DNA of 59,499 nt. It comes from a virus. The notes below the pieces were generated by a model. It was not told the origin of the DNA. It saw only the letters and a program-made list of their open reading frames with translations, and searched no databases. The position numbers were made by a program, and so were the translations under genes. Within the stretch, counting starts at the first letter, position 1. Every line of letters starts with the position of its first letter. Below are positions 1,473 through 46,603 of this stretch, in pieces. The stretch spans positions 1 through 59,499 of the IMG/VR virus record IMGVR_UViG_3300050821_005203, one strand, 5' to 3'.

Positions 1473-1625
1473 CTACGATTGCGGCTTGATGGTGAGATCT
1501 TCCGGCTTCACCCAAGCCAGCTTGACGACATCGTAGACGAGGCCCGCTTTCAAGTTCGCCATGTAGGTTACGTGCGCGGCCTTACAGATCGCGATCTCGC
1601 GCGGCTTCATGTCGGTGGTCTTCAT
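1473..1625 (-). CDS. Hypothetical small protein (50 aa)
   Basis: A 50-residue protein starting MKTTDMKPREIAICKAAHVT. The start is supported by AGAGG nine bases upstream. A longer in-frame reading extends beyond the divergent promoter region and is rejected. It is the first gene of the leftward early operon, directly downstream of the minus-oriented promoter at 1696-1669. No domain is recognised. Confidence 0.55.
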   Translation of the reverse strand: MKTTDMKPREIAICKAAHVTYMANLKAGLVYDVVKLAWVKPEDLTIKPQS

Positions 1626-1647
1626 CGGGCTGACCTCTCTTTTGCTC

Positions 1648-1696
1648 TTGCGTTCTGCTCCTCGGTCGAATATATACATCCCAGGCAAGAGTGCAA
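1648..1696. promoter_or_regulatory. Divergent promoter region sharing one AT-rich core
   Basis: Leftward: TTGCAC (1696-1691), 16 bases, then TATATT (1674-1669). Rightward: TTGCGT (1648-1653), 17 bases, then TATATA (1671-1676). Both fit a sigma70-like promoter only moderately at the -35, but the overlapping -10 boxes lie in the only AT-rich stretch between two divergent gene clusters. Overlapping -10 elements would make the two directions mutually exclusive. Confidence 0.5.
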
Positions 1697-1707
1697 GAGG
1701 ATATTTG

Positions 1708-2334
1708 TTGCACACAGATAAAAAATTGGGGTTCCCCCGGCCGTACCTAAGGGATGGGGTGCCGAGCCTCTCGATCGAGAGGCAAATGGATATGCTTCGC
1801 GAGGCAGGTGTTGATGTGTCGAACCCCCGGATGCTGTACGTCGATCGACTGTCCAAGGCTGCGGTCAAGAAACGCGACCCGGCCGCTTTGAAGCAGCGCG
1901 CGTCCCTGCTCGACCCGGAACATGACGGAGAGACGATCTACATCGCGGGCCTGCGAGTGCTTGGTTGGACGATGAACGACATTGCCCGAGCTCTGCTAGC
2001 CGCCGCGAATAGCAACACGAACGTGCATTGCGTTGACACCGGAACGACTTACTCAGCCGACATGCCCGGCCCCGCGCTCCTCGAGGCTCTGGCGAGCGCC
2101 GAGGAAGCACATCGGCGCGGTGTGGCGCAGGACAGGCAGACGCGCGCCACCACCGCATCCCAACGAAAGCGAGCAAAGGCCAAACAGGCGGCGCTCAACA
2201 AGATCCGGGAGCGCTGGCGGGATCGCGCACACGACACCGATGCTCTCATAGCCGAGAGCGGACTCAGCCGGCGCACGGTCTATACCGCGCTTGGCCCCAG
2301 GTTCGAGGGCGACGCAGGAGTCGAACATGCCTGA
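1708..2334 (+). CDS. Resolvase-like protein with C-terminal HTH, apparently catalytically dead
   Basis: The N-terminal part (PYLRDGVPSLSIERQMDMLR then YVDRLSKAAVKKRDPAALKQ) has the layout of a serine-recombinase catalytic domain: YxR-x-S...Q near the start and a regularly spaced D-R. However, the catalytic serine after YLR is replaced (YLRDGV). The middle is an alanine-rich, basic helical linker. The last 40 residues form a helix-turn-helix (DALIAESGLSRRTVYTALGP). A TTG start with AGAGG seven bases upstream fits best, because the first ATG in frame lies inside the opposite gene. It overlaps the methyltransferase gene by eight bases. A DNA-binding regulator derived from a resolvase is the likeliest reading; the serine loss argues against recombination. 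Confidence 0.55.
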   Translation: MHTDKKLGFPRPYLRDGVPSLSIERQMDMLREAGVDVSNPRMLYVDRLSKAAVKKRDPAALKQRASLLDPEHDGETIYIAGLRVLGWTMNDIARALLAAANSNTNVHCVDTGTTYSADMPGPALLEALASAEEAHRRGVAQDRQTRATTASQRKRAKAKQAALNKIRERWRDRAHDTDALIAESGLSRRTVYTALGPRFEGDAGVEHA

Positions 2335-3071
2335 CGACGGCCCCCTTGTCTTATCCCTCTTCCCCGGCATCGGGCTGCTTGATATGGCTTTTGAGGAGGC
2401 GGGCTTCTGTATTGTTCGCGGGCCTGATTTGCTGTGGGGCGGAGATATTCGCCGCTTCAATCCGCCAGCAGGAAAATTTGATGGCGTGATCGGTGGTCCC
2501 CCTTGCCAGGCTTGGTCTCAGCTTCGGTTCATCGTGGCGGCGAACGGTTTCTCGACCGCGCCCGATCTGATTCCCGAATTCGAGCGCTGCGTCGGTGCAG
2601 CGCAGCCCCGCTGGTTCCTGATGGAAAATGTGCCGGCGGCACCCGAACCGAAGGTCGCCGGGTATTTGGTGCGGTCGGAAATGCTGCGCGACTTATGGGT
2701 GGGCGGCGCGACAGAGAGGCTGCGCCGATTTAGCTTCGGCACTGAACAGGGATCGCGGTTGCCGATCGCGACCAGGGCACTACACGAGATAGAAGGCGAG
2801 CCGGCAGTCACCTGTGATCTACGCCGCCGGCCAGTCCGGTTGGGTGGCTCGCGGAAGCCGAAGGAGAGCGGCGGGAGAACGTCGTCTCTAAACCGCGGCG
2901 GTGGGGCTGAAACGCTGGAACGAATGCTGGAGTTGTCTGGTCTGCCGCCCGATTTCTGCAGAGTGCCCGCTGACGCAGACCGGTCGGAAGCGCGTCATCG
3001 GCAATGGCGTGCCGCTTCCGATGGGCCGAGCGGTCGCAGAAGCTGTGAGGACGGTCCATGTGCAAATCTAA
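2327..3071 (+). pseudogene. C5 cytosine DNA methyltransferase, frameshifted
   Basis: Makes 5-methylcytosine in DNA using SAM. Visible motifs: motif I LSLFPGIGLLDMAFEEAGF (residues 9-27), the catalytic PC motif GGPPCQAWS with Cys60, motif VI FLMENVP near residue 100, and RLRRFSFGT (motif VIII) near 131. After SGLPPDF (residue 210, about base 2956) the reading frame loses similarity. One base over, it resumes as PLTQTGRKRVIGNGVPLPMG (motif X) and ends at 3071. The restored stop overlaps the next start (3058) normally, whereas the uninterrupted frame runs on to 3217 through that gene. It is therefore a broken gene, a sequencing error or, less likely, a recoding site. Phage methyltransferases of this type usually protect against host restriction. 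Confidence 0.8.
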
Positions 3072-3255
3072 CAACGCGTGCTCGAATACGACCGTCATTA
3101 ACATCAGAACGACCAGGGAAATCCGGGATCGCCTCGATGCTGCGGCTAAGGTTGACGGTCTCAGGCGCACCGATTTCATTCTCAGGGCGGCACGCATCCG
3201 AGCTATCGAAATTTTGACGCGCGGAGCGCAAAACGAGAGGAATTTGCCAGAATGA
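3058..3255 (+). CDS. Ribbon-helix-helix protein, DUF1778/TacA-antitoxin-like
   Basis: A 65-residue protein whose core, VINIRTTREIRDRLDAAAKV followed by RRTDFILRAARIRAIEIL, matches the beta-helix-helix pattern of MetJ/Arc proteins. It most resembles the DUF1778 antitoxin subgroup (I-N-x-R-x-T...R..ID.AA...G..R.DFIL.A). Such proteins bind operator DNA as dimers. No GNAT toxin gene follows, so it is an orphan antitoxin-like regulator rather than a complete toxin-antitoxin pair. It starts 14 bases inside the restored methyltransferase 3' end. Confidence 0.6.
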   Translation: MCKSNNACSNTTVINIRTTREIRDRLDAAAKVDGLRRTDFILRAARIRAIEILTRGAQNERNLPE

Positions 3256-3461
3256 ATGGCATGAAAACCACTATTGCGACTCGTTTGTGCGGCCCGAAAT
3301 ATCTCCGGGGCATCGTCGAGCGCTGCGATGGCTCGTGCTGTGGACTGCGCCCGGACGGCACTGTGGATGTAGAACAGACGGAGCGGCTGAACGCAGCCTC
3401 TCCGGATGGTGGAGATTGCCGAGTTTATGGAGATATGGTTGTGCGAGGGCCTATATCGTGA
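3252..3461 (+). CDS. Hypothetical small protein (69 aa)
   Basis: It begins MNGMKTTIATRLCGPKYLRG. Four cysteines (RLCG, VERCDGSCCG, GDCR) suggest a possible metal site, but spacing does not match a known finger. The start overlaps the upstream stop as ATGA and the end overlaps the next start as GTGA, placing it firmly in the coupled small-gene cluster. Function unknown. Confidence 0.55.
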   Translation: MNGMKTTIATRLCGPKYLRGIVERCDGSCCGLRPDGTVDVEQTERLNAASPDGGDCRVYGDMVVRGPIS

Positions 3462-3625
3462 GCAAGGAAACGACCATTGAGGAGCATATAGAGCGAGCTC
3501 GCGAGCTGATCGAGCACGTGTTAACTCAAATCGACCACTGCGATCGAGCCGATATCAAATTCGCGCTGTGGCAGGCCCGTGACGAACTCGCTATGGTACT
3601 GGCTGTCGATGTGCAAAATGCCTGA
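3458..3625 (+). CDS. Hypothetical helical small protein (55 aa)
   Basis: It starts at GTG overlapping the preceding stop (GTGA). The sequence VSKETTIEEHIERARELIEH and the following D-R-A-D-I-K-F-A-L-W-Q-A-R-D-E-L-A segment predict two amphipathic helices. Its first codons (S-K-E-T-T-I) follow the shared S-x-[DE]-x-T-T start pattern of this cluster. No family is recognised. Confidence 0.55.
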   Translation: MSKETTIEEHIERARELIEHVLTQIDHCDRADIKFALWQARDELAMVLAVDVQNA

Positions 3626-3875
3626 CGACCAACCACAATCGACCGTTAGGCTGGACACAAGCGGGGACGAATTAAAGATGCTGCGCGACGTCGTCCTGCG
3701 AGCGCACCAGATGACGGGTGGCGCTTATATTCAGTCGGACGCGGAGATGATGCGGCGCGCGCACAGACTGCTCGAGGCCGCCGTCGAGGCGTCTCCGGTG
3801 TTGCGCGGCTTCCTCGGTCGTGGTGGGCCATTCGCCGACCGCGACATCCTAACCGGCTCCGGAGATCTATCGTGA
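3618..3875 (+). CDS. Hypothetical small protein (85 aa)
   Basis: The start codon in GTGCAAAATGCCTGA overlaps the previous stop by eight bases and carries the cluster's GCAAA(A)TG cassette. The protein begins MPDDQPQSTVRLDTSGDELK; the body is helical (MLRDVVLRAHQMTGG and MMRRAHRLLEAAVEA). No motif identifies a function. The longer in-frame reading from 3579 would overlap the upstream gene by more than 40 bases and is not preferred. Confidence 0.55.
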   Translation: MPDDQPQSTVRLDTSGDELKMLRDVVLRAHQMTGGAYIQSDAEMMRRAHRLLEAAVEASPVLRGFLGRGGPFADRDILTGSGDLS

Positions 3876-4186
3876 ATGATCAACTGAATACGACCGATCC
3901 TGGTATCGCTTCCAAAGAGCGGATTTGCCAACGTTGCGGCAGAGATCATTGGCGCGACGATATCGTGTGCAACGACTGCGCTAGTAGAGAGGGCTCGCAA
4001 AGGACCCAACGCGACGTCTTCTGGCGAGGGTCGCCGTCGGACGTGATCGCGTGGTGCGCCTTGGATCGCGACGGCCAACTGATGGCGAATTCGGTTCGCG
4101 CCCGTCCCGAGGATGTTCGGCTGGCTTGCGGCGAGTGCGTTCCTCTTCGTGTTCGAGTCAGCTATGAACCGGAGACAGAAACGTGA
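3872..4186 (+). CDS. Zinc-ribbon hypothetical protein (104 aa)
   Basis: The GTG start overlaps the upstream stop. Residues 14-35 contain ICQRCGRDHWRDDIVCNDCA, a C-x2-C...C-x2-C knuckle that probably binds one zinc ion. A further Cys pair (LACGECVPLR) lies near the end. The middle has tryptophan-rich short strands. Zinc knuckles in tiny phage proteins usually mediate nucleic-acid or protein contacts; nothing more specific can be said. Confidence 0.6.
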   Translation: MNDQLNTTDPGIASKERICQRCGRDHWRDDIVCNDCASREGSQRTQRDVFWRGSPSDVIAWCALDRDGQLMANSVRARPEDVRLACGECVPLRVRVSYEPETET

Positions 4187-4407
4187 GCGAGCAAAGGACC
4201 ACTTATGCCGCGCTGCGGGAGGCTATGAATACCGCGGTCGACGCGATGATCCGTGCTGATAATATGTGGTCAATCAATTCCATCCCGCGCCTAAAGCGCG
4301 CGTGGCTGGCGGCAGTCGACGTGCTTGAGACAGAGGCCCGGCAAGTTGCCGCCGCAGAGGTGGCGCGCGCTAGTCTCGAATTGTCAGGGCGTGCAAATGA
4401 AAAGTGA
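4183..4407 (+). CDS. Hypothetical helical protein (74 aa)
   Basis: The protein begins MSEQRTTYAALREAMNTAVD, again with the S-[DE]-Q-x-T-T opening typical of this cluster. The rest is alpha-helical and alanine-rich (AWLAAVDVLETEARQVAAAE). A GTGA overlap links it to the upstream stop. No known domain. Confidence 0.55.
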   Translation: MSEQRTTYAALREAMNTAVDAMIRADNMWSINSIPRLKRAWLAAVDVLETEARQVAAAEVARASLELSGRANEK

Positions 4408-4537
4408 CGAGAGCAAAACGACCCTAACGAGGAAATGCTGTTGCGTATGTGGCTGGGTCTATTATCTCGACCGCTGGCAGTGCGTCTGGTGCAAATCATG
4501 GCTGACATATCGCGACGTTCTCAGGCTGTACAAATGA
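4397..4537 (+). CDS. Small zinc-knuckle protein (46 aa)
   Basis: Starts in the GCGTGCAAATG cassette, 11 bases inside the preceding gene. The protein MKSDESKTTLTRKCCCVCGW ... QCVWC has a compact C-x2-C...C-x2-C arrangement with aromatic residues, a likely single-zinc rubredoxin-type knuckle. It ends with an ATGA overlap into the next gene. Function unknown. Confidence 0.55.
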   Translation: MKSDESKTTLTRKCCCVCGWVYYLDRWQCVWCKSWLTYRDVLRLYK

Positions 4538-4683
4538 AAACTCCCGCTTCTGATATGACCGTGTACCGCTGCGGTCAGGCGGCAGCGATGGCCGATAATC
4601 TGCATCTGGACGGAGACAAATATTGGTCAAACGTCGCGGCGGTCGTGCTAAAGCGAATTCCTGCGGGCATGCGCAGAAGATGA
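4534..4683 (+). CDS. Hypothetical small protein, possibly truncated by frameshift (49 aa)
   Basis: It begins MKTPASDMTVYRCGQAAAMA and includes LHLDGDKYWSNVAAVVLKRI. The start follows GTACAAATG and overlaps the upstream stop. The protein ends abruptly (AGMRRR), while coding-like sequence continues in another frame up to 4807, so the true product may be longer. No family recognised. Confidence 0.45.
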   Translation: MKTPASDMTVYRCGQAAAMADNLHLDGDKYWSNVAAVVLKRIPAGMRRR

Positions 4684-4807
4684 TGCCGTCGAGCGAATAG
4701 CTGGCCGGATTAACTCATTTAACCTCACGCACCGGGAATTGAAGACGGCCACTCGCCGCGTCCTCTTGTCGCTCTGCAGCGAGCTAGGAGCGCAAAATGT
4801 CGAATGA
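4652..4807 (+). pseudogene. Orphan coding segment without a normal start
   Basis: Frame 2 stays open from 4652 to a TGA at 4805 and reads DDAVERIAGRINSFNLTHRE followed by LKTATRRVLLSLCSELGAQN. This is a plausible helical sequence and ends in a GGAGCGCAAAATG junction like neighbouring real genes. It has no ATG, GTG or TTG start. It is probably the 3' part of the gene at 4534 displaced by a one-base frameshift; a CTG at 4661 is the only near-cognate start. Confidence 0.4.
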
Positions 4808-4973
4808 CCAAACCACCGATCCGACAGATCGAGACCGAAAGCTAGCTGCCTATTGGACTGAGCGGGGCGACTTGCGAGCGTGGATCGCTGGTATCATCGC
4901 GGCTACGCGGCGTGCCGAGCGTGAGGAATGCCTCCAACGTGCTTACGATGCTATGGAGCCACGGAACCTTTAA
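4797..4973 (+). CDS. Hypothetical small protein (58 aa)
   Basis: The ATG follows GGAG with the CGCAAA spacer, the best example of the cluster's start cassette. The product begins MSNDQTTDPTDRDRKLAAYW and continues with a helical stretch (IAGIIAATRRAEREECLQRA). One cysteine, no membrane segment. Function unknown. Confidence 0.55.
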   Translation: MSNDQTTDPTDRDRKLAAYWTERGDLRAWIAGIIAATRRAEREECLQRAYDAMEPRNL

Positions 4974-4987
4974 TCAGAAGGTGCTTG

Positions 4988-5236
4988 ATGCAATCCGAAA
5001 CGCGAACTGAGCAGACGATCGATCTGATTGAGCGCGTAGCGCGAGCGCTCAAGCCGCAAGCATTCAAGATTTATGACGCCGGCTACCCTTCTGGACTTCG
5101 GGCGAATTGGCTCGCCGAAACCGCATTTCGCAACGCCGAAAAGAACGTCAAGCGGGCTCGAAAGGATGCGGAGATAGCCGTGAAGATCGTGCAGGAGACG
5201 CAAAATGCCGACCACCACATCCCAAGCTATACATGA
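4988..5236 (+). CDS. Hypothetical small protein (82 aa)
   Basis: It starts MQSETRTEQTIDLIERVARA, with AAGG six bases upstream of the ATG. The segment ERVARALKPQAF and the helix AETAFRNAEKNVKRARKDAE suggest an all-helical fold. It resembles small phage proteins that open with an I-E-R-V-A-R-A helix. The last codons read through another cassette-like GACGCAAAATG, where an internal ten-codon ORF begins; this is not annotated separately. Confidence 0.5.
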   Translation: MQSETRTEQTIDLIERVARALKPQAFKIYDAGYPSGLRANWLAETAFRNAEKNVKRARKDAEIAVKIVQETQNADHHIPSYT

Positions 5237-5499
5237 GTGATTGCTTCGGGTATCTGCGGTGGTCCCCAACATCGTGCCAGCGCTGTGGTTACGAGCGCGC
5301 TGATTGTAATTGCGTCGGCGGGTTCGCTGAATCTACCATCGAAGAGATCGCGCTGGCTATTTGGCGCGAGCGGGAGATTGGGTTTCCGCCCCGCGTCCGC
5401 CGATTCAGCCCGGATGCTATTGATCGCGAAAGCGGCGCGTGGCAGGCAGTAGTGCGAGAGGCACACCGCCGGGCTATTCGGCGCACTGTACGTCGATGA
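5233..5499 (+). CDS. Cys-rich hypothetical protein (88 aa)
   Basis: An ATGA overlap with the upstream stop sets the start. Residues 14-30 contain CQRCGYERADCNC, a possible zinc site. The remaining residues (STIEEIALAIWREREIGFPP and IDRESGAWQAVVREAHRRAI) form helices ending in a basic tail (RRTVRR), suggesting nucleic-acid contact. Function unknown. Confidence 0.55.
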   Translation: MSDCFGYLRWSPTSCQRCGYERADCNCVGGFAESTIEEIALAIWREREIGFPPRVRRFSPDAIDRESGAWQAVVREAHRRAIRRTVRR

Positions 5500-5672
5500 C
5501 GGTCGAACGGCTATCCCGGCGATGCCCTGCGTGTCTCGAAAGGTTTGCGCCGCGTTCTCTAAGGCAGAGATTTTGCTCCCGGTCATGTTCGGCCAAAGCG
5601 CTGCGATTGCGCTGGGCACCGAGAGTGACCCCACTTGATGATTTCGAGGAGTTCATGAATGTCGAGCGATAA
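5496..5672 (+). CDS. Small zinc-finger protein (58 aa)
   Basis: The protein begins MTVERLSRRCPACLERFAPR and continues RQRFCSRSCSAKALRLRW. The C-x2-C...C-x3-C pattern with 'RFCSRSC' is the treble-clef/FCS-like knuckle often seen in HNH-associated and phage zinc proteins. The start overlaps the previous stop (ATGA). A nucleic-acid binding role is plausible but inferred. Confidence 0.55.
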   Translation: MTVERLSRRCPACLERFAPRSLRQRFCSRSCSAKALRLRWAPRVTPLDDFEEFMNVER

Positions 5673-5889
5673 CCAACCGACCCCATTCGCCTATACCGTC
5701 TACTATCGGCGACGTGACGGAGTTGGCACGCGCATTTGGGATCGCGGGCTCACCCAGTCAGAAGCCATCGCGCAACAGCGGTGGTGTTTCCAGAACGTTG
5801 CAACAGCAGCATCGATGGTCTGGATCTTACGTGATGACGGATCGCTGCTCGGCGAAGCCATGCTGCGGGAGCGTGCAAATGGCGGCTGA
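5659..5889 (+). CDS. Hypothetical small protein (76 aa)
   Basis: It opens MSSDNQPTPFAYTVYYRRRD, with the cluster's S-D-N-Q-P-T start pattern. Beta-strand-like aromatic segments alternate with a helix (LTQSEAIAQQRWCFQ). It overlaps both neighbours by about ten bases. No family is recognised. Confidence 0.5.
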   Translation: MSSDNQPTPFAYTVYYRRRDGVGTRIWDRGLTQSEAIAQQRWCFQNVATAASMVWILRDDGSLLGEAMLRERANGG

Positions 5890-6064
5890 GCAAACGACCA
5901 TTCCTACCGCCGCAGATCTGAATTATGGGGAGGGGCACTTTGATGGAGTGCGAGAGGAACGCGAGCGCTGCGCAAAGCTGGTCGAGGAAGAGTGCGTTTA
6001 TATGGTGGGCAGGATTCAGGCTGCTGCGATAGCTCGTAAAATCAGGAGTGCAAATGGAAAGTAG
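5879..6064 (+). CDS. Hypothetical small protein (61 aa)
   Basis: The start lies in GGGAGCGTGCAAATG and overlaps the upstream stop by 11 bases. The protein begins MAAEQTTIPTAADLNYGEGH and is followed by a charged helix (REERERCAKLVEEECV) and an R-I-Q-A-A-A-I-A-R-K-I-R tail. Such E-R-x-R-C-A-x-L-V-E sequences are common in small phage proteins of unknown role. Confidence 0.5.
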   Translation: MAAEQTTIPTAADLNYGEGHFDGVREERERCAKLVEEECVYMVGRIQAAAIARKIRSANGK

Positions 6065-6395
6065 CAAATCGGATTCGACCGTTCGAATCACAGTCAATTT
6101 GTATGCCGTCCACGATAGAAGCGACCACCCCGAGGGTACTTTGGTGCTCGTCGCGGCTCGTGGCTCGGAGCACGCCTTGGCGTTGATAAATGCAGTTCCG
6201 GGTTTCGATTGGACGCTTGGCAACACACGAACTAATCGCCTCTGGCGCAACATCAACCGCCAGCCGGGCATCATAGATTTTTCCCCCATGCACCACGAGA
6301 AAAGCTTTCGTCAGACAAGCGGCTTCCGATCTCCAAGCGCCGCACGTAGGCGAAAGTCGAGGAAAGACGCGCGCATGTCTGAGATGGGGGCTTGA
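6054..6395 (+). CDS. Hypothetical protein with basic C-terminus (113 aa)
   Basis: The start follows AGGAGTGCAAATG, a complete Shine-Dalgarno plus the shared spacer. The N-terminal 60 residues (VRITVNLYAVHDRSDHPEGT, VLVAARGSEHALALIN) look like a small alpha-beta domain. The C-terminal 35 are strongly basic (SAARRRKSRKDAR), suggesting DNA or RNA binding. It is the last gene of the rightward left-arm cluster. Confidence 0.5.
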   Translation: MESSKSDSTVRITVNLYAVHDRSDHPEGTLVLVAARGSEHALALINAVPGFDWTLGNTRTNRLWRNINRQPGIIDFSPMHHEKSFRQTSGFRSPSAARRRKSRKDARMSEMGA

Positions 6396-6416
6396 CGAGC
6401 AGTCGAACCGTCCGAT

Positions 6417-6455
6417 AAAAACAAGGCCCGGTGAGCCGTAGCTCCAACCGGGCCT
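6417..6455 (-). terminator. Rho-independent terminator for the leftward ruvC operon
   Basis: AGGCCCGGT (6424-6432) pairs perfectly with ACCGGGCCT (6447-6455). On the minus strand the stem is followed directly by TTGTTTTTATC, a U tract. The plus strand lacks one. It lies where the leftward operon (8190 to 6974) meets the end of the rightward cluster (6395), the expected place for a terminator. Confidence 0.7.
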
Positions 6456-6973
6456 GTGGGATCGATGTCGTGGTGGCGACGAAGATCCTGATCAACGACG
6501 TAGGACAAGTACGCATTGACCACGCACTCAAATAAGCCATCCGACCTAAATCGTCAACGGACGCGTTTCTGCGCGCCCGATCTTTTTCGTTTACCCATTT
6601 GACTGGACTGTAAAAGCAGGCTTCGAGGACGTACCGCCCGTAAACGCCGGCCTCTGCTAGACGAGCCCTGCCCCCGAAACCGCTCGGCAATATGTGCTGC
6701 CGAGTACGTCGGACCGAGTAGCGATCAACGCTGCCGAAACCCCAAGCCGCCCTTTTTGCTAGGGAGGGGTAAGGGGAGGGTGGAGTTTTTTCTCTGCGTA
6801 ACCTCTCTTGGCCGCCCGAGCGCAGCGGTTAGCGGAGCGAGTGTTCCGACATCGCTTGACCGTCCGAGAGTGGCGGTCGAGTGGGTGCGCGTCTCCCCTT
6901 GTGTTTAGGTAAAGGTTGTCATGACGCCCGCTCCGACGGCCCGTAAGGGACTCGGACGGCGGGGCGGCATCAT
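6456..6973. other. 518-bp stretch with no confident gene
   Basis: Both strands contain open frames, but none has a good start, ribosome-binding site and family pattern together. On the minus strand a 14-codon basic ORF (MGKRKRSGAQKRVR, 6597-6553) ends at a TGA. The same frame then continues open through the terminator hairpin (DGLFECVVNAYLSYVVDQDL), so an eroded gene is possible. The purine-rich block near 6765-6785 and the CTCTCTTGG stretch show no promoter I can defend. Confidence 0.35.
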
Positions 6974-8265: not shown

Positions 8266-8511
8266 ATGGAAGATCTCGACGATATCGAACGGAAGATTGA
8301 CGAGCTAAAGGCAGACGAGACCCGTCTGCACCATCTCTGGACTCTGACACCCGACGAGAACGTGGCGGGGCTCCGCGCCCTAGAGTTGGAGATGAACGTC
8401 CTCTGCACTGACCTTACCGATCTCTTCCGCCAGCGACAGGAGGCGTGGGCCGAGCATGCATCGCGGGCGCGGCGAGACACCGCGAATCGGCTGAACCTGA
8501 GCGAACGATGA
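8266..8511 (+). CDS. Coiled-coil hypothetical protein (81 aa)
   Basis: GAGGGGG five bases before the ATG fixes the start. The product MEDLDDIERKIDELKADETR followed by LRALELEMNVLCTDLTDLFR is almost entirely helical with heptad-like leucines, so a short coiled coil is likely. The 3' end carries the first GAACC[CT]GAGCG[AG]ACGATGATG junction repeat. Function unknown. Confidence 0.55.
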   Translation: MEDLDDIERKIDELKADETRLHHLWTLTPDENVAGLRALELEMNVLCTDLTDLFRQRQEAWAEHASRARRDTANRLNLSER

Positions 8512-8921
8512 TGGACGAGGAAGACAAAACACGGCTTATGGAGGTCGTTGAGCGCCTTGATTATTTTCAGGGCAGCGAAGTAGTTAAGTTAGCGAGGGCC
8601 GTTGAGAGAGGGCAAATCAGGCCACATTATCTAGCGCCACCCGAGAAGGGTGTCTACCTAGTCCTGCCTATTGACCCGAGGCTTCTGTTCTTTACCAGGA
8701 GCGGTTACGAGAGAGATTGGGTCCAATTTGTAAGGGTGAGCCTCGGTATAATACTGTCTTTAGCTATACTCGGGACGGTCATCGGAGTGCCGTTGTACTA
8801 TTCGGCCAGTCGGTCGGCGCAGATCTACAACAGTATGAACGGAACCCACTACACGGCTGGTGATTTTATGTGGGCGGGGGATCAAATCAACGCCTCAACC
8901 CACACCGTTCATCTAAAATGA
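8508..8921 (+). CDS. Single-pass membrane protein (137 aa)
   Basis: The start (ATGATG) overlaps the previous stop. Residues 1-70 are soluble and charged (RLMEVVERLDYFQGSEVVKL). A membrane segment follows (VSLGIILSLAILGTVIGVPL), then about 40 polar residues. The topology suggests a cytoplasmic N-domain anchored in the inner membrane. Possible superinfection-exclusion or immunity function is only a guess; no family recognised. Confidence 0.55.
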   Translation: MMDEEDKTRLMEVVERLDYFQGSEVVKLARAVERGQIRPHYLAPPEKGVYLVLPIDPRLLFFTRSGYERDWVQFVRVSLGIILSLAILGTVIGVPLYYSASRSAQIYNSMNGTHYTAGDFMWAGDQINASTHTVHLK

Positions 8922-9193
8922 TGACGAAGCGCGAGCAGAGAACGATGAGCTACGGAACCATCCCCCATGCCGGCCCTGATGCCGCAGCTATCTACGCAGG
9001 CGAAGAGTGGCAGCGGAGCGTTGAGCGAATGGCGAGGTTCTTGTGTCTCAGAAAACGCTCCGATCCTGACGAGCCGGTTTACTACGGGCCTGTATCTGAC
9101 AACACCTCGCGTCCGTTGTGGACGCACTATGCGGACGAAGCGTCCGTCTTACTTCAAGAGGCCAAGGATATCCTGAACCCGAGCGAACGATGA
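8918..9193 (+). CDS. Hypothetical protein (91 aa)
   Basis: The start overlaps the upstream stop (ATGA). The segment YGTIPHAGPDAAAIYAGEEW and the C-terminal helix YADEASVLLQEAKDIL look like a folded small protein without a known domain. An internal ATG (MSYG..., 8945) preceded by GAGAACG is an alternative start. It ends in the second copy of the junction repeat. Confidence 0.5.
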   Translation: MMTKREQRTMSYGTIPHAGPDAAAIYAGEEWQRSVERMARFLCLRKRSDPDEPVYYGPVSDNTSRPLWTHYADEASVLLQEAKDILNPSER

Positions 9194-9381
9194 TGGAAAA
9201 AGTGACGGTATTTATCACCACGCGCATGATCGAGGCCGGCGCGCGCATCCTCTCCGCCAGCGATGTGTCCGACCATCAGACCGCGTTCGAGGTGTTCTGG
9301 GCGATGGTGGAGGCGTCGGATGAACTGCAGAACGTGGCGGAACCCGAGCGGACGATGATAGAGGATGGCCGACATGGCTAA
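9190..9381 (+). CDS. Hypothetical protein (63 aa)
   Basis: It begins MMEKVTVFITTRMIEAGARI and has an amphipathic helix (QTAFEVFWAMVEASDELQ). The third junction-repeat copy lies inside its 3' end in a different reading frame (EPERTMIEDG), as though a stop had been lost and a neighbour fused. Function unknown. Confidence 0.5.
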   Translation: MMEKVTVFITTRMIEAGARILSASDVSDHQTAFEVFWAMVEASDELQNVAEPERTMIEDGRHG

Positions 9382-10575: not shown

Positions 10576-11493
10576 ATGTCAACCGACACAGACCCGGCCC
10601 CCGAACAGGGGCCGGGCACTATGCTCATAACGCGCTGTATTTGCGGATGGGTAGGAGAGAGTTCAGCGTGGGAAATGCATCTAAAAACAGGTCGCAGCGG
10701 CCCCCATTGCGAGATAGACCCGCCTTCTGTCCGGCTTCCCGAACAGCCGGGGATGCTTGCGCTGATCGATCGATACGTCCGAGACCCGTCGATCGATGTC
10801 GATAAGCTCGAACGCATCCTCGCAATGAAAGAGCGCATGGACGCCAAAGAGGCCGAGATCGAGTTCAACGAGGCCAAGGCTAGCCTGTCGCAGAAGCTCG
10901 CCGGCTATCGCATCGTGCGGTCGCGGATGGTGCTTTACGACATCGACAAGAACGATAAGAAGAAGGGTAAGGAGGAGGCTTTCAAATACGCCCCTCTGGA
11001 AGACATTGACAAGATCGTGAGACCGCTGCTGGTCGAGACCGGTATGGACGTTTCCTACACAACAGCGACACGCGAACGAGAGGGCGGCGGAGCCGTGATC
11101 ACGGCACGGCTGACCCATCGCGGAGGCCATTTCCAGGAAGCCTCCATCCCAATCCCTCTGGACACCACCGGGGGCAAATCGAACACCCAGGCGATGGGCT
11201 CAACCTTCTCATATGGTCGCCGCTACACGCTGTGTATGCTGCTGAACATCGTTACGGTCGGCGAGGATGACGACGGCAGCGGCGGATACATAGACGGCGC
11301 CCAGATCGACCATCTCCGCGAGCTTATCGGCAAGGTCAAAGCGCTCGATCCCAAGCGGGACGAATCGACGTTCTGTAAATATATGCGGGTCACCACCTTA
11401 CCGGAGCTACCGCAGCAGCAGTACCGCAAGGCTACCTCGGCTCTGGAAGAGGCTATTTCCAAACTCTCACAGAAGGCGTCAGCAGATGCCTGA
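10576..11493 (+). CDS. erf: ERF-family single-strand annealing protein
   Basis: Anneals complementary single strands in phage recombination, working with the exonuclease at 12430. The ERF core is at about residues 60-225: KLERILAMKERMDAKEAEIE, SLSQKLAGYRIVRSRM, KYAPLEDIDKIVRPLL and the diagnostic AMGSTFSYGRRYTLCMLLNI. N-terminal extension: possible zinc motif (RCICGWVGESSAWEMHLKTG plus GPHC). Start overlaps the upstream stop (TGAATG); ATG at 10621 is an alternative, and a hairpin at 10593 lies between the two. The last 17 codons are partly duplicated at 11672. Confidence 0.85.
   Translation: MSTDTDPAPEQGPGTMLITRCICGWVGESSAWEMHLKTGRSGPHCEIDPPSVRLPEQPGMLALIDRYVRDPSIDVDKLERILAMKERMDAKEAEIEFNEAKASLSQKLAGYRIVRSRMVLYDIDKNDKKKGKEEAFKYAPLEDIDKIVRPLLVETGMDVSYTTATREREGGGAVITARLTHRGGHFQEASIPIPLDTTGGKSNTQAMGSTFSYGRRYTLCMLLNIVTVGEDDDGSGGYIDGAQIDHLRELIGKVKALDPKRDESTFCKYMRVTTLPELPQQQYRKATSALEEAISKLSQKASADA
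10593..10616. other. 9-bp hairpin inside the erf 5' end
   Basis: CCCGGCCCC (10593-10601) and GGGGCCGGG (10608-10616) form a perfect stem with a six-base loop. It lacks a U tract. It lies between two candidate erf start codons (10576 and 10621), so it could hide or expose the ribosome-binding region of the second, or be a weak terminator after the secreted-protein gene. Confidence 0.4.
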
Positions 11494-12429: not shown

Positions 12430-13149
12430 ATGCCTAAACTACATTTTTGCGCTCAATATTCCAGTGAGTACGAGGCGCTAAAGCTCGGCCTCCCGACCAG
12501 CTCTAACTTCCATGCCCTATTCACCAAGCCGTCCAAAAAGTTCCCCAAGGGACAGCCGTCTACCCAGTGGAAGCACTTGGCCCATCACTTGATCGCCGAG
12601 CGTCTGCTAAAACGGCCCGTGGAGACCTTCACCAGCTATCACATGGAGCGCGGGTTGGAAATGGAGCCCGAGGCGGTGGCGTGGTATGAGTGGGAAACCG
12701 GGGTCGAGACGCAATTGATCGGCTTCATCACGACCGACGACGGGAAGGCTGGTTGCTCGCCCGATCGGCTGATCGGAGAGGATGGATTGCTGGAGATAAA
12801 GTGTCCGACGCCCACGGGACAGGTTGATTATCTGCTCGATCCGGACGCCGCCCACAAACACTGGCCGCAGCTCCAGGGGCAGTTGCTTGTGTCGGGTCGG
12901 AGGTGGGTTGACCTCCTAGCATGGCACCGGCATTTGCAGCGCCGCGTCGTCCGGGTGGAGAGAGACGAGGAATACATCGGGCAGCTAGATTGGCAGTTGA
13001 GGCTGCTCAATCAGTACATCGATGGAGTCATGAGCAGATTGTGGTGGATAAGCGAACAAGGTCCGCCTCCCCAGGCGGATCGCCCCGAAGGCGCGCCCGT
13101 TGATAGCCCCCCCGCGGTCGACGACGCCTTCGGGGTGTCCCATGCCTAG
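12430..13149 (+). CDS. YqaJ/lambda-exonuclease-type recombination nuclease
   Basis: A 5'-3' double-strand exonuclease that produces the single strands annealed by the ERF protein. The N-terminal TSSNFHALFTKPS matches the [TS]-[AS]-S entry of the family. HMERGLEMEPEAVAWYEWET corresponds to the G-x2-x-E-P-x-A-x2-Y-E motif. Catalysis: GCSPDRLIGEDGLLEIKCP (Asp, then Glu-x-Lys). WPQLQGQLLVSG completes the fold. At 239 residues the length is typical; the last 30 (proline-rich) may be a flexible tail. Separated from erf by an inserted HNH gene and a small cassette. Confidence 0.85.
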   Translation: MPKLHFCAQYSSEYEALKLGLPTSSNFHALFTKPSKKFPKGQPSTQWKHLAHHLIAERLLKRPVETFTSYHMERGLEMEPEAVAWYEWETGVETQLIGFITTDDGKAGCSPDRLIGEDGLLEIKCPTPTGQVDYLLDPDAAHKHWPQLQGQLLVSGRRWVDLLAWHRHLQRRVVRVERDEEYIGQLDWQLRLLNQYIDGVMSRLWWISEQGPPPQADRPEGAPVDSPPAVDDAFGVSHA

Positions 13150-21862: not shown

Positions 21863-22959
21863 TTGAAGCTCGCCTGCCCCGCCATCGCGGCTTCCAGGGT
21901 TGTCCATGTCCAAGTTGGATTTTCGGCTGTTGGGCCTGGAGTTTGGATCTGATATGCCTCCGCGACGCCTTGGTGGTTGGCGGTGCCGTTAAGAATAGGT
22001 CCTGCGGTAAATGGTGACGATACACCGATCCCGCTCTGGGTGCTGTTTACTGCAAGACACGACACCAACAGCTCGTTCGCCTGAGTCGGGGTTATGGAAC
22101 CCGGTTGAATTGTGGCTATGTTACCCACCCCAGCGTGAGAGGATTGGTCAAGAGGGCTTACCGCCACATTAGCAAAACCCATGACGGTAAGAGCGGGCGC
22201 TGCAGTTGTCCCGCTAGCGCTAGCTGTAAATGTCATAGAAGTAGACACAGTGGGCGCCTGCACGTAAAGCAAAACCCCCGTAACGTTATCCTGAGCTGCT
22301 GAGTAAACCTGCGTGTAGGTGTTTCCCAAACTATCGGAAAACACGCTACTACCGCCGGCACCAATGTAATAACTCAGGCATCCGACGATGTGGTTAACCC
22401 CCATCATGTTTGTGGCGGAGGTCGTGCAGGGGAGCGTGCCGTTTGACGACCCGCAGGAATTAGTCGCGCCGGCTACAGCCACTATCGGAGGGCTCACTGC
22501 GTACTGCGGCGTCCAGCAGTCCCATTCTGTGGACGAAGAACTGGTCCCGACAACGTCGCAACCGAACCAGTCGATTTGACTAGCAATTTCCGCAGCAGGA
22601 CAAGCAACGTTCGGAACGCCGGTTCCGGTGCAAATAGCGTATGGTGACTGGAGAGCCCAATTGTAGCCTGAACCAAAACTAAGTCCGGTATAGGGAGAGC
22701 CGGAGTTGTTCCCGGCGTTAATCCGAAACTTGACCGATAAACCGTTCGCGGCTACCGGACATGCGGGTGGAAATAGAATTTGATGGTTGTTGCCAGTCAG
22801 CGTCAGGTAATAGGTGACCGGGACCAGAGGGCCGGGGCAGGGAACCGTGATTGTCGCCCCGTCGGTGAGTACGATTGGGGGTGGGACGGTCTCGTTGATG
22901 GCGTGAGCAGGCTTGGCAAGCATCAAGCCTACCAGCAGCAGAAAGCATAGAGCCCTCAT
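21859..22959 (-). CDS. Secreted beta-rich protein paired with a collagen-like gene (366 aa)
   Basis: [20 protein letters not shown] is a clear signal peptide. Residues 20-135 are a beta region ([20 protein letters not shown]). The C-terminal 200 residues ([60 protein letters not shown]) follow the galectin/jelly-roll pattern common at the end of phage tail proteins, also seen in 46604-47599. The ATGA overlap couples it to the collagen-like gene upstream. Confidence 0.55.
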
Positions 22960-24710
22960 CGGACAATCCAATTTGAAATACCGTCGGACATCAGGGGGAT
23001 GTTGGTGCCTTGGGTGTTGATGTCGGTGAATGTGTAATTAGAGCCGCTACCTATCGTATCCCCGGCGTGCGGCGTGATCGTGTGCGTATCTCCCGCGCCA
23101 AGAATGGCCGCAACGTCGATCGTACACCCGGTAAAACCAGCGGCGGCGCTCGTGATCGTGGTCGTTTTGGCTCCGGGAGAGGAGTTGGCCCAGATGACCT
23201 GCGTCGGATGTGTTAGAGAGGCCGCGACGCTCTGGGTGCCGGTCGAGGTGACTCTGATGATGGTCGCGGCGTAGTTGCTGCCCGATCCCGTAGGTCCCGT
23301 TACGGTACTCGCCGCCCCTGTGGCACCCGTGTTGCCCGTGGGGCCGATACTGCCCGCCGCGCCGCCCGCGCCCGTAGGTCCCGTAGCCCCCGTATTGCCC
23401 GTTGCTCCCGTGTTCGTGGCGGCACCTGCCGGCCCGGTGTTGCCGGTGACCCCAGTCGGGCCTGCGGGTCCGGTAGCGCCGGTATTGGCCGCCGCCCCCA
23501 TCGGGCCGGTATTCCCGGTCGCCCCGGTCGCCCCGGTATTCGTCGCCGCGCCCGCCGTTCCGGTCGGCCCAGTAGGCCCGGTTACTGTAGAAGCAGCGCC
23601 GGTAGGCCCCGTTCCGAGCGGTCCCGTGTTACCGGTAGGCCCGGTGTTACCAGTGGGGCCTGTGACCGTACTGGCGGCGCCCGCCGCCCCGGTGTTACCG
23701 GTCGGCCCTGTGACGCCTATCGCCCCCTGTGGCCCGGTGTTGCCGGTGACCCCAGCGGGACCTGTAGCTCCTGTATTTGTCGCAGCACCTGCCGCACCAG
23801 TATTGCCCGTAGCCCCGGTCGGCCCTATGGGACCCGTTGCGCCGGTATTGGCCGCGCTCCCCATCCCGGTAGCGCCCGTCGGTCCGGTGTTGCCGGTAGG
23901 CCCTGTGACCGTGGAGGCCGCCCCTTGAGAACCCGTGGGGCCAGTACCGAGCGGCCCAGTAGAACCCGTATTGCCCGTGGCCCCGGTCGGCCCTATGGGT
24001 CCCGTGGCCCCGACGGGACCCGTAACGCCGATTGGGCCAGTCGAGCCAGCCCCCGATGCCCCGGTAGGCCCTGTGAACCCTATTCCAGCCGGACCCGCCG
24101 CGCCCGTATTCCCGGTCGGTCCCGTGCTGCCCAGCGGGCCTACGCCACCAGCAGTGCCAGTCGGGCCTTGTGGTCCGGTCAGGCCCAGCGGGCCGACCGG
24201 CCCTGTTTGACCCGTTGACCCAGTTGGTCCCGTACCTAGCGGTCCGGTTGATCCGATGGCTCCGGTTGGTCCACTCGGACCGGTTGCGCCGAATCCAGTG
24301 GCCCCGGTAGCACCAGTGGCCCCGGTTGCGCCTGTGCTGCCGGTAGGACCTATCGCGCCTGTCGGACCCGTGGCCCCCACGCCGCCCGTAGCGCCGGTAT
24401 TGCCGGTCGGTCCCGTACCTAGCGGGCCGGTATTACCGGTGACCCCTTGCGCACCTGCCGCGCCCTGAGTGCCCGTGGGGCCTGTGTTGCCGGCAGACCC
24501 AATCTGCCCCTGCGGTCCGGTTGGTCCGATAGCGCCCGTGGGACCGCCCATCGGACCCGTAGGCCCCGTAGCGCCCGTAAAGGCACCCGTGGTGCCGGCT
24601 TCGAGCTGACCCTGATCGTTCCAGTATGCGCCTTGCCCCGCCCTAACGACGCCGCCGACTTGCCGGACCGTAGTACCGGAGTATTCGCCGTATATGGGGC
24701 CGGTCGGCAT
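22956..24710 (-). CDS. Large collagen-like protein (584 aa)
   Basis: A head of about 45 residues ([20 protein letters not shown] then [12 protein letters not shown]) is followed by some 430 residues of Gly-X-Y triplets, mostly [11 protein letters not shown]-terminal domain of about 110 residues ([40 protein letters not shown]) probably trimerises or tips the fibre. Bacteriophage collagens form trimeric virion fibres. The head is shared with the proteins at 24710 and 30918. No signal peptide, consistent with a virion protein rather than secretion. Confidence 0.8.
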
Positions 24711-25429
24711 CAGCCGAGGCTGACGTTAACGACGCCGCCGTTGCTCCACAAATGGCCGGCGACGTGAGGATCGAGCGTCGGCAGGCCGGAAAGTATTATC
24801 GTCGCGCCGGTAGCCGTGAGATTAGCGAATGACCCGTTGGTCGGGTTGGCCCCGGTCGGCCCTGTTGCCCCGGTGCTGCTCGCGGTGCCCGCAGGACCCG
24901 TATTACCCGTGTTACCGGTGGGTCCTGTGACCGTGCTGGCCGCTCCGGTCGCCCCGGTCGCGCCCGCTGCTCCGGTTGGCCCGGTAGGCCCTGTAACGGT
25001 CGAAGCCGCGCCCGCAGCCCCCGTGTTCCCTGTAGGGCCGGTAGCTCCGACAGCGCCCGTAGGCCCGGTGGAGCCTGGGCTTGGTCCGGTAGCTCCGGTG
25101 TTCCCCGTAGCTCCGGTGTTGCTTGCTGCTCCGGCAGTTCCCGTGGGACCTGTCGCCCCCGTGGGACCAGCCGGGCCGGTGGCCCCGGTGTTGCTTGCGC
25201 TACCGGCCGGGCCGGTGTTCCCTGTCGCGCCGGTTGCCCCAGCAGCTCCTGTATGTCCTGTGGGTCCTGTAGAGCCTGTCGTTCCGGTAGGGCTGTGACC
25301 CGAGTCCTGAACAAAACCAGGGGCGGCCCACTCCACACCGTGACCGGCTGTAACGGTGCCAGACTGCCTTACGGGAAGGCCGGCGTACTCAGCCTGCGCA
25401 GGATCGTTGGCGATCGGCCCCGTGGTCAG
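24710..25429 (-). CDS. Short collagen-like protein, probable CTG start (239 aa)
   Basis: The head ([35 protein letters not shown]) aligns with those of the other collagen-like proteins, and 130 residues of G-P-T triplets follow. A short tail (GLPTDPHVAG-like, ending V-N-V-S-L-G) closes it. The shared head can only be included if translation begins at CTG 25429, six bases downstream of a GAGCATAG element; the first GTG (25336) would remove it. It overlaps the next collagen gene by one base. Confidence 0.7.
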
Positions 25430-30069: not shown

Positions 30070-30921
30070 CTAGTGGGTCGCATTCAGCGCCGCTGTCGTG
30101 AGGACGATGTGCGTCGAATCCCGGACATAATAGGAGAGCGTGTCGGTGGCGTTCGCTCCGGTAGATAGCGCGATCGAGGCTGTTCCGCCACTATAAAGAT
30201 ACGACGACCCCCAAGTTCCGATCGTGTCCGATCCAGACGAACTCTGCGTGATCTCGATTACCCCCGACGTACCGGCGACCGGCGTTCCCGATGGATTGGC
30301 AAGAGTGCAGGGACACGATGCGTGAACAAGGGTGAATTTTATGTTGTTGCCCGCCGCCGCGGAGGGCGTAAAGGTCGCGGTAGAGATCGTCAGCGTCTGA
30401 GGCGTTGAGGATTGGGTCGCCGTCCATGTGTTGATCTGACCGAGGAGCTGACCCCAGCCGGGGAACCCTGCGCAATCCAACGACACGCCGTTCGAGAGGT
30501 ACGCGGCGAACCCGCCCGGATAGATTGTTGATGGGCACCCGTTGACGGTCGGCGTGGACGACACGGTCACGTTGGTCGCGGCGAAGTTATCCGCCACCAA
30601 CGTTGCCCCGGCGGGGAAGACGGTGGACGAAATCGCCGGGATATTCAGCGTTAAAGACGAGCCGTTGAGGTTTATCTGGCCCGCCATGTCGCCAGCCCCG
30701 ACGGTCGGACTTGTCGTAACGGTGCGGTCGGGGGCTTTTAGATTGGCGGTCGCCGCCTCGTTGCTGCCTCCGACGATAAAGCCGTTCCCAAAGGTAATCA
30801 TGCTGGTGTTGGGGACGGTGTTGGTCCCGTCGGTGATCGTGAGCGGGACGAACGCACCTACGACGGCCGACAGCCCGAAGATGCCGCTGATAAGAAGGAT
30901 CGCAAAAGCCAGCTTCCTCAC
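30070..30921 (-). CDS. Secreted tail-fibre-like protein paired with a collagen-like gene (283 aa)
   Basis: GTG start overlapping the collagen stop (GTGA). [20 protein letters not shown] is a signal peptide. The rest is a low-charge beta-rich sequence typical of fibre tips ([40 protein letters not shown]). It occupies the same place after a collagen-like gene as 21859-22959 does in the other module. Confidence 0.55.
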
Positions 30922-32234
30922 CAGACCACCCACCCAGAGCCGTTGTAAGTGAACCAGTTCTGCTGACCGTTCGCGGCCATGAGATACCCCGTCGCGCCAG
31001 CCGTGCTCGCATACGAGTAAATGATAGAGCCGTCCGTTGTCTTAACCGTGCAATTGTTGGTAGTGAAATTGTTGCCGAAATCCTTAATGCCGACGGTCAA
31101 GTTCGTGGCTGGAGAAGCCGGAAGGTTAGCGGTGAGCGCGGCAGGCGTACCCTGGTTGATGCAGTACAACAGACCGTTGGTCGCGGTCATCGCCAAGGGC
31201 GTGGTGTTGCTCGTATAGATGCTGGTCGTTATGGAGAAGCCGCCGGGACCCGACCCGGTGGGACCGATCGCCCCCGTAGGTCCTGTGGGACCCGTGCCCA
31301 TAGGCCCGGTGTTGCCCGTAGGCCCTGTAACGGTCGATCCTGCCCCAGTTGCTCCCGTAGGCCCCGTAGCTCCTACGGAACCGGTCGGCCCGGCAGACGG
31401 TCCGGTCGGACCCGTAACGGTGCTCGGAGTGCCCGTCGGGCCTGTATTGCCCGTTGGGCCTGCAACGCCCTGTGCTCCGCCCGCGCCGGTAGGACCTGTC
31501 GCCCCTAGATTACCAGCCGCGCCGGTCTGACCTGTGGGTCCCGCCGGCCCCGTGGCCCCCGTGGGACCAGCCGACGGACCCGTGGGACCGGTCATGCCGG
31601 CGTTGCCTTGCAGGCCCTGCAACCCTGTCGGACCCGTAGGACCGCCCGCAGGACCTGTGGGTCCCGCCGGCCCGCCGCCGGTCGGACCCGTCGTCCCGGT
31701 CGGTCCCGTCGCCCCTGATGCGCCGGCCCCGGTAGGACCGCTCGGCCCCGTGTGTCCTGTGTAGCCTGTTGGCCCCGTGCCTCCGAGAGGGCCGGTCAAT
31801 CCCAAAGGACCGGGCGGCCCGCTGGGACCGGTTTGTCCGATCGGCCCAGAGGGACCGATTGCCCCGGTAAGACCTATGTGACCGGTCGGCCCAACCTGTC
31901 CGGTAGGTCCGGTCGGACCCTGGATACCAGTGGCGCCCGTAGGCCCGGTCGGTCCCGTAAATCCTACCCCAGACGGACCCTGCTGGCCGGTCGGTCCGCT
32001 TGATCCGGTAGGACCGCCCGCCCCGGTCATCCCGGTCGCCCCCAGAGGGCCTACCGCTCCCGTAGGTCCGTGCGGTCCCGTTCCTCCCGTGAAGCCGCCC
32101 TTCGGGATCTTCGAGTCCTCGATGAACCCGTTCTCGTTCCAGCTCGCAAAATTACCCGGCGTCGGGGGTGTGTTTACCTGCCGTGTCGGGGTACCGGCAT
32201 ATTCGGTTTGGAACGGATCGTTGGAGATCGCCAC
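30918..32234 (-). CDS. Collagen-like protein (438 aa)
   Basis: Head [20 protein letters not shown] then [20 protein letters not shown], about 270 residues of Gly-X-Y (mostly G-P-T/G-A-T), and a C-terminal domain of about 110 residues ([38 protein letters not shown]). The tryptophan-rich end resembles tail-fibre tips. The GTG start follows the stop of the shorter collagen gene. Probably a trimeric virion fibre. Confidence 0.8.

Positions 32235-42819: not shown

Positions 42820-42823
<4 letters not shown>
42578..42823 (-). CDS. Small exported coiled-coil protein (81 aa)
   Basis: [20 protein letters not shown] is a signal peptide; the mature part is a charged helix ([32 protein letters not shown]). 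A two-domain plan of signal or anchor plus coiled coil also fits a small spanin. The start overlaps the collagen-like gene's stop (ATGATG). Confidence 0.5.

Positions 42824-46603
<3,780 letters not shown>

Follow-up and report, generated by a model that had tools for sequence, protein, structure and literature searches.

A repeated gene-junction sequence that reaches into the coding region in an early phage operon

Background

Phage genomes are rich in tiny orphan genes of unclear origin. In this work we describe a short sequence that is repeated at the gene junctions of an early operon in a virus record of 59,499 bases (IMG/VR record IMGVR_UViG_3300050821_005203; the whole stretch is called the window below), and compare it with two kinds of repeats known from passages of the phage literature. 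The nearest described thing are the start-associated sequences (SAS) of Cluster K mycobacteriophages, and the nearest mechanism is that of the boundary sequences.

SAS have the consensus GGGATAGGAGCCC and are located 3–7 bp upstream of the start codon (Pope et al. 2011, PMC3203893; survey PMC12699233). According to passages of the first report, they are preferentially found at genes with gaps longer than 50 bp, and their role is unknown (PMC3203893). Conserved boundary sequences, as far as the passages concerned go, are regarded as sites of homologous recombination, and a 50-bp repeat at genes 67/68 of Island3 is held to be behind the gain or loss of gene 68 (PMC3029335). In addition, excerpts of a third report state that Rad52-like phage recombinases drive mosaicism, and that the Erf protein and exonuclease of phage D3 recombined DNA of 78% identity about as well as lambda Red (PMC3945230).

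We favour, with moderate confidence, the reading that the window repeat is a phage-specific gene-junction sequence, i.e. a start-associated or boundary sequence which extends into the coding region.

Results and discussion

The repeat is found in the early block at 3058–6395 on the plus strand, a packed run of 16 small open reading frames (ORFs) of 11–113 codons each. The starts in this operon were set by hand and the motif had been noticed before it was tested. The operon and the junction copies are as follows (nt, nucleotides).

3058..6395, plus strand: operon of 16 small overlapping ORFs, holding all junction copies
3446..3478, plus strand: gene 3458, GTG start; GTGA overlap; codon block GAAACGACCATT
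3609..3647, plus strand: gene 3618; GTGCAAAATG; 8-nt overlap; CAATCGACCGTT
3861..3898, plus strand: gene 3872, GTG start; GGAG; GTGA overlap; AATACGACCGAT
4171..4203, plus strand: gene 4183, GTG start; GGAG; GTGA overlap; CAAAGGACCACT
4386..4426, plus strand: gene 4397; GTGCAAATG; 11-nt overlap; AAAACGACCCTA
4523..4563, plus strand: gene 4534; GTACAAATGA; 4-nt overlap; GATATGACCGTG
4787..4820, plus strand: gene 4797; GGAGCGCAAAATG; 11-nt overlap with the open frame 4652–4807; CAAACCACCGAT
5193..5240, plus strand: ORF 5205, 11 codons only; AGGAGACGCAAAATG; MPTTTSQAIHE
5647..5685, plus strand: gene 5659; AGGAG; 14-nt overlap; CAACCGACCCCA
5867..5902, plus strand: gene 5879; GGGAGCGTGCAAATG; 11-nt overlap; CAAACGACCATT
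6044..6083, plus strand: gene 6054; AGGAGTGCAAATG; 11-nt overlap; GATTCGACCGTT

An in-frame block behind the start codon

The strongest part of the repeat is located within the coding sequence. Counted in frame when beginning at codons 3–11, NNG-ACC is present in 10 of the 16 operon genes, with its first codon at position 5–11 and CAAACGACC as its best form (ACGACC five times, TCGACC twice, and CCGACC, ATGACC and AGGACC once each); gene 4797 carries CAAACCACC, and weak forms of the block are seen in 3252 and 4988. Only 19 of 197 control starts contain NNGACC (p=2e-6), these controls comprising five sets, namely Shine-Dalgarno-supported ORFs from the minus strand of the window, from the related phage G004 and from both arms of the relative G001, together with nine starts at 8.2–12.5 kb. 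When codons were shuffled within genes, 1.3 genes on average carried NNGACC, with a maximum of 7 in 20,000 shuffles. In the only one of these tests that corrects for the choice of the motif, each of 2,000 shuffles was scored by its best 4-mer in any frame, and the observed 10 genes were never reached.

As the copies are repeated in a single orientation in an early operon, and as its first gene encodes a ribbon-helix-helix-type (TacA-like) protein, one might think of binding sites of a regulator, on DNA or RNA, at each gene start, similar to stoperators. A binding site does not require a frame, however, yet off-frame GACC is rare, being found in two genes over the same stretch. In addition, RNA complementary to CAAACGACC with at most one mismatch was found 19 times against 16.2 expected, eight of these being the cassette area itself, and is thus not beyond chance; no Rfam match, no tRNA and no excess of promoters or terminators were detected. 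Regulator sites are therefore a highly improbable explanation.

The block is accompanied by an enrichment of threonine, which takes up 32 of 175 codons at positions 2–12 and 35 of 903 later on (p=4e-10); ACC makes up 16 of the 32 threonine codons at positions 2–12 as compared with 10 of 35 later (p=0.06). This enrichment, always in frame, would also be expected of a short N-terminal peptide tag (…Q-x-T-T-[IV]) kept by selection for one common use such as partner binding or a degradation signal. The variable distance from the start suits a flexible tail, and the first ten residues are predicted with lower confidence than the helices in structure models that, built from one sequence each, are little informative. 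In the first codon of the motif, however, the third base is G throughout (in part a consequence of how the motif is defined), yet the residue encoded may be T, S, P, M or R; moreover, different folds follow, so that the context of such a tag is not constant, all of which makes a tag unlikely in our view. The TT of 3058 may stem from the fold of that protein itself.

The Shine-Dalgarno sequence and spacer

Upstream of the block, GCAA(A)ATG is found at the starts 3618, 4397, 4797, 5205, 5879 and 6054, and TACAAATG at 4534. All six occurrences of GCAAA?ATG within 3058–6395 are ORF starts, and GCAA(A) precedes 6 of the 16 operon starts but none of the 197 control starts (Fisher p=7e-8). The upstream form shared across the 16 starts is AGGAGYGCAAATG. 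In a leave-one-out profile of positions −14 to −1, seven of the 16 starts rank in the top 5% of all ATG/GTG sites, and one of the 16 ranks in the top 1%. The GTG-start genes 3458, 3872 and 4183 have the codon block and no GCAAA spacer; since they keep the block despite a different overlap (GTGA), spacer and block are two separable parts.

It could be argued that only ordinary translation signals are seen here, i.e. that a Shine-Dalgarno sequence, an A-rich spacer and low early mRNA structure were selected independently in each gene, with overlapping stops biasing the first residues. The weakness of the upstream half would agree with this, as would the A-rich start regions that fold less than the rest (−13.6 vs −17.4 kcal/mol), the stops that account for part of codons 3–4, and the occurrence of AGGAGCG with an A-rich spacer at starts of the unrelated contig L071. 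An in-frame CAAACGACC whose distance from the start varies, and which has a sharp edge, would not be expected from such signals, and both parts of the repeat are absent or rare at control starts, which leaves translation signals alone a rather unlikely explanation. L071 had, like L075, first looked promising as a candidate, and only common ribosome sites were found in both.

The preliminary description of this DNA had proposed a start cassette conserved over the ribosome-binding site, the spacer and codons 2–7. Its coordinates were correct to 1–2 nt and the convergence of the N-terminal residues is borne out by the threonine counts. The cassette itself stands at six starts, among them 5205, which had been missed, with an upstream half that is only modest, and the strongest conservation lies in codons 5–9 at variable distance from the start. 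A plain Shine-Dalgarno sequence, against which that description had set its proposal, nearly suffices for the upstream half alone and fails for the codon block, as in-frame conservation extends beyond the start codon.

Geometry of the junctions

Every one of the 16 starts lies inside an upstream frame with 40 or more open codons. The overlap is 4 nt long in seven cases, 11 nt in four and 14 nt in two, with 8, 23 and 32 nt occurring once each (5233 overlaps its immediate neighbour 5205 by 8 nt). An overlap of exactly 11 nt is thus found at 4 of 16 operon starts vs 3 of 200 controls (p=6e-4). At 4397, 5879 and 6054 the upstream gene stops 11 nt into the next gene and reads GCA-AAT through the cassette, and the C-termini GRANEK, RERANGG and RSANGK are encoded through the unit; at 4797 the open frame 4652–4807 ends with the identical 11-nt overlap. 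The repeat is a junction, not merely a start.

The upstream stop (nnT GAn or AGT AGC) is out of frame with the following gene and sets part of its codons 3–4. The convergence of the proteins on S-x-[DE] is therefore real but partly forced by this stop, which had been overlooked before, as seen from S/N/A-[DE] in MSNDQTT, MAAEQTT and MKSDE; the later CAAACGACC is not accounted for by it. One copy, 5205–5240, is an ORF of only 11 codons (MPTTTSQAIHE) with a strong ribosome site, located inside the end of 4988 and overlapping the start of 5233, and may represent either a slot with almost no body or a leader minigene.

As a side observation, gene 4534 ends at 4683 and the frame 4652–4807, open right after, reads as its continuation up to the 4797 junction, so that a frameshift between the two, real or a sequencing slip, is likely.

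A sharp edge and unrelated bodies

When the ten genes with the block are anchored on ACC, the mean pairwise identity is 0.68 over the 9-nt block, to which the anchoring itself contributes three invariant positions out of nine. It is 0.39 and 0.33 in the two preceding blocks and 0.24 directly 3' of the 9-nt block, with a background of 0.26 and a 99.9% null level of 0.34. The codon block has a sharp 3' edge, background being reached within one codon after ACC. In a gapped comparison of the start regions, 14 of 119 pairs scored above the 99% level of in-region controls, with 1.2 expected, and the pairs 4797/5879, 4397/6054 and 4797/5205 align over 40–50 nt, from about −22 to +18..+29. The share of pairs above this level is 12.5% here vs 1.3–2.5% for structural-gene starts and other phages, and about 8% in two other early sets (window 8.2–12.5 kb; G001 42–47 kb).

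Past residue 12, the bodies of the proteins did not match one another in BLASTP even with E values of 1 allowed, and phmmer reached no better than 0.028 in some 200 comparisons among them; the bodies are mutually unrelated. The first operon product (3058) resembles the antitoxin TacA family (Pfam E=5e-8), and for most other bodies no Pfam or PHROG family was matched; 3872 and 4397 encode CxxC proteins, and one further body is a helical protein. A single old gene family, tandemly duplicated, whose bodies change fast while the N-terminus is constrained, could account for one operon of similar-sized genes on the same strand and for the adjacent genes 4397 and 4534, which have 19 of 23 nt in common across the junction. 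As the bodies differ in kind, show no convincing pairwise similarity and lose their identity abruptly, such a family seems improbable to us.

Comparison with described systems

The window repeat works like SAS and boundary sequences, yet it is not a member of the SAS. Going by the passages cited above, both it and SAS are short, contain AGGAG, occur in one orientation at the starts of many unrelated non-structural genes, are private to one phage group and sometimes include the upstream stop. The placement also agrees, a few bases upstream of the start codons of non-structural genes in one orientation. None of the 16 upstream sequences, however, fits the SAS consensus GGGATAGGAGCCC with up to two mismatches (judged by eye), and SAS are not described in those passages as reaching codons 5–9, whereas the strongest block of the window repeat is coding and its genes overlap. 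Within the literature surveyed, as represented by listings and passages, we found no description of a start repeat whose sequence runs on in frame as far as codons 5–9.

With boundary sequences, again according to excerpts, the window repeat shares its location at gene junctions and its shortness, and in Island3 such a repeat is linked to a small orphan gene having been gained or lost. The Island3 repeat, however, comprises C-terminal residues, concerns one gene and belongs to an event that is visible in a relative, whereas the window repeat comprises junction and leader and concerns many genes of a phage with no such relative known.

Relatives and the possible exchange of bodies

The structural genes of the window resemble those of uncultured tailed phages, the portal protein being 49–58% identical to those of G001, G003 and G004 over nearly its whole length and 36% to that of G005; these portal relatives have structural genes in common with the window but not the early region. 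The DNA of 1600–6700 has no match in annotated phages. Neither two pattern scans of viral contigs (47 and 23 loci) nor the portal relatives revealed another contig that carries an array of cassettes. The loci from the two scans look like chance matches; in the 47, together with earlier loci, no locus has more than one cassette that includes the codon block, vs five in the window. A scan of the starts in all collected loci gave 53 matches in 21,528 starts, with at most three per locus among the 14 loci listed.

Single-protein searches covered five bodies (3872, 4988, 5233, 5659, 5879 and 6054 are named across the collections) and provided relatives for 5233 only. No relatives were found in annotated phages for 3872, 5879, 5233, 5659 and 6054, in viral contigs for 3872, 6054 and 4988, or in genome contigs for 5233. 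In viral contigs 5233 has one related locus, L062, to which a two-row alignment adds L064. The C-terminal half of 5233–5499 (ALAIWREREIGFPPRVRR...) is 76% identical in L062, preceded there by an N-terminal part that differs and is longer, and 62% identical in L064, where the apparent start is located just before it. The 45-residue domain (ALAIWREREIGFPPRVRR…) thus occurs in three phages with three different N-termini:

Window 5338–5496
L062 7998–8150
L064 1873–1998

The bodies are therefore modular.

Proposed origin of the repeat

One unit would provide an upstream stop, a Shine-Dalgarno sequence, an A-rich spacer, a start codon and a hydrophilic leader of 5–10 codons ending in (C)AAACGACC, with an unrelated body following each leader. 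Its copies may have arisen by duplication and recombination among the gene slots of one overlapping operon, which is probably translationally coupled, and any body landing in frame behind the unit would then be translated. The phage encodes two proteins that perhaps assist such copying:

10576..11493, plus strand: Erf-like single-strand annealing protein, which may assist recombination between repeats
12430..13149, plus strand: exonuclease, likely partner of the Erf-like protein

Phage D3 likewise encodes an Erf-like protein and an exonuclease, but its substrates, according to the excerpts available, were much longer than a repeat of 40–50 nt, so that the use of such short repeats by the window phage is only hypothetical.

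We infer that the copies spread by recombination, that bodies were captured at the edge of the unit and that translation is coupled. The sharp edge and the lack of similarity among the bodies suggest that bodies were exchanged at the boundary, as do the near-empty slot 5205 and the Erf-like protein with its exonuclease. The preliminary description had likewise seen a mosaic with bodies swapped under a constant 5' end. The constant end over unrelated bodies holds, while swapping at the boundary stays an inference.

Several findings, besides the ACC anchoring mentioned above, speak against a junction sequence behind which bodies were exchanged. The upstream half is weak and the copies have diverged, and 5233 and 5496 carry neither part of the unit. 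Moreover 5233, the sole body with relatives, lacks a cassette of its own in the window and has recombined inside the gene rather than at the edge of the leader; neither the pattern scans nor the start scan revealed a related phage with the same leader on another body.

Other junction repeats

A second, different junction repeat of 30 nt (…CTGAACC[CT]GAGCGAACGATGATGGA) has three copies on the plus strand (span 8489..9365):

8489–8518, plus strand: first copy
9171–9200, plus strand: second copy
9336–9365, plus strand: third copy, in another frame of its upstream gene

The copies are 83% identical to the first one, and the repeat spans the end of a gene (LNLSER*, LNPSER*) and the next start (MMDEE, MMEKV). 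In the relative G001 (L012, about 42.7–45.1 kb) the small early genes have start repeats of their own, ATAGGGAAAGGGTTCCT[CG]AGATG twice and GGGAGGG-nn-GAGCGATG three times. Together with the second window repeat, these suggest that phage-private start repeats may be usual in this group; a coding leader common to many genes is seen only in the window.

Among the structural genes, three (22956–25336, 30918–32234 and 42820–44526) encode long collagen-like proteins rich in GPTG/GATG repeats.

Conclusion

With the repeat, the boundary-sequence model becomes testable inside one operon. In addition, common N-termini of small phage proteins need not imply homology, because here an overlapping stop forces part of the likeness. 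More tentatively, it is possible that the operon works as a leader-plus-slot system from which new small proteins keep arising. Foreign or random sequence would enter a constant, dual-coded junction in frame behind ACGACC; its product would be translated without delay and might have one N-terminal property in common with the other products. A repeat that gives unrelated bodies one start, one stop overlap and one set of first residues would offer a definite site at which the gain of tiny orphan phage genes could be followed.

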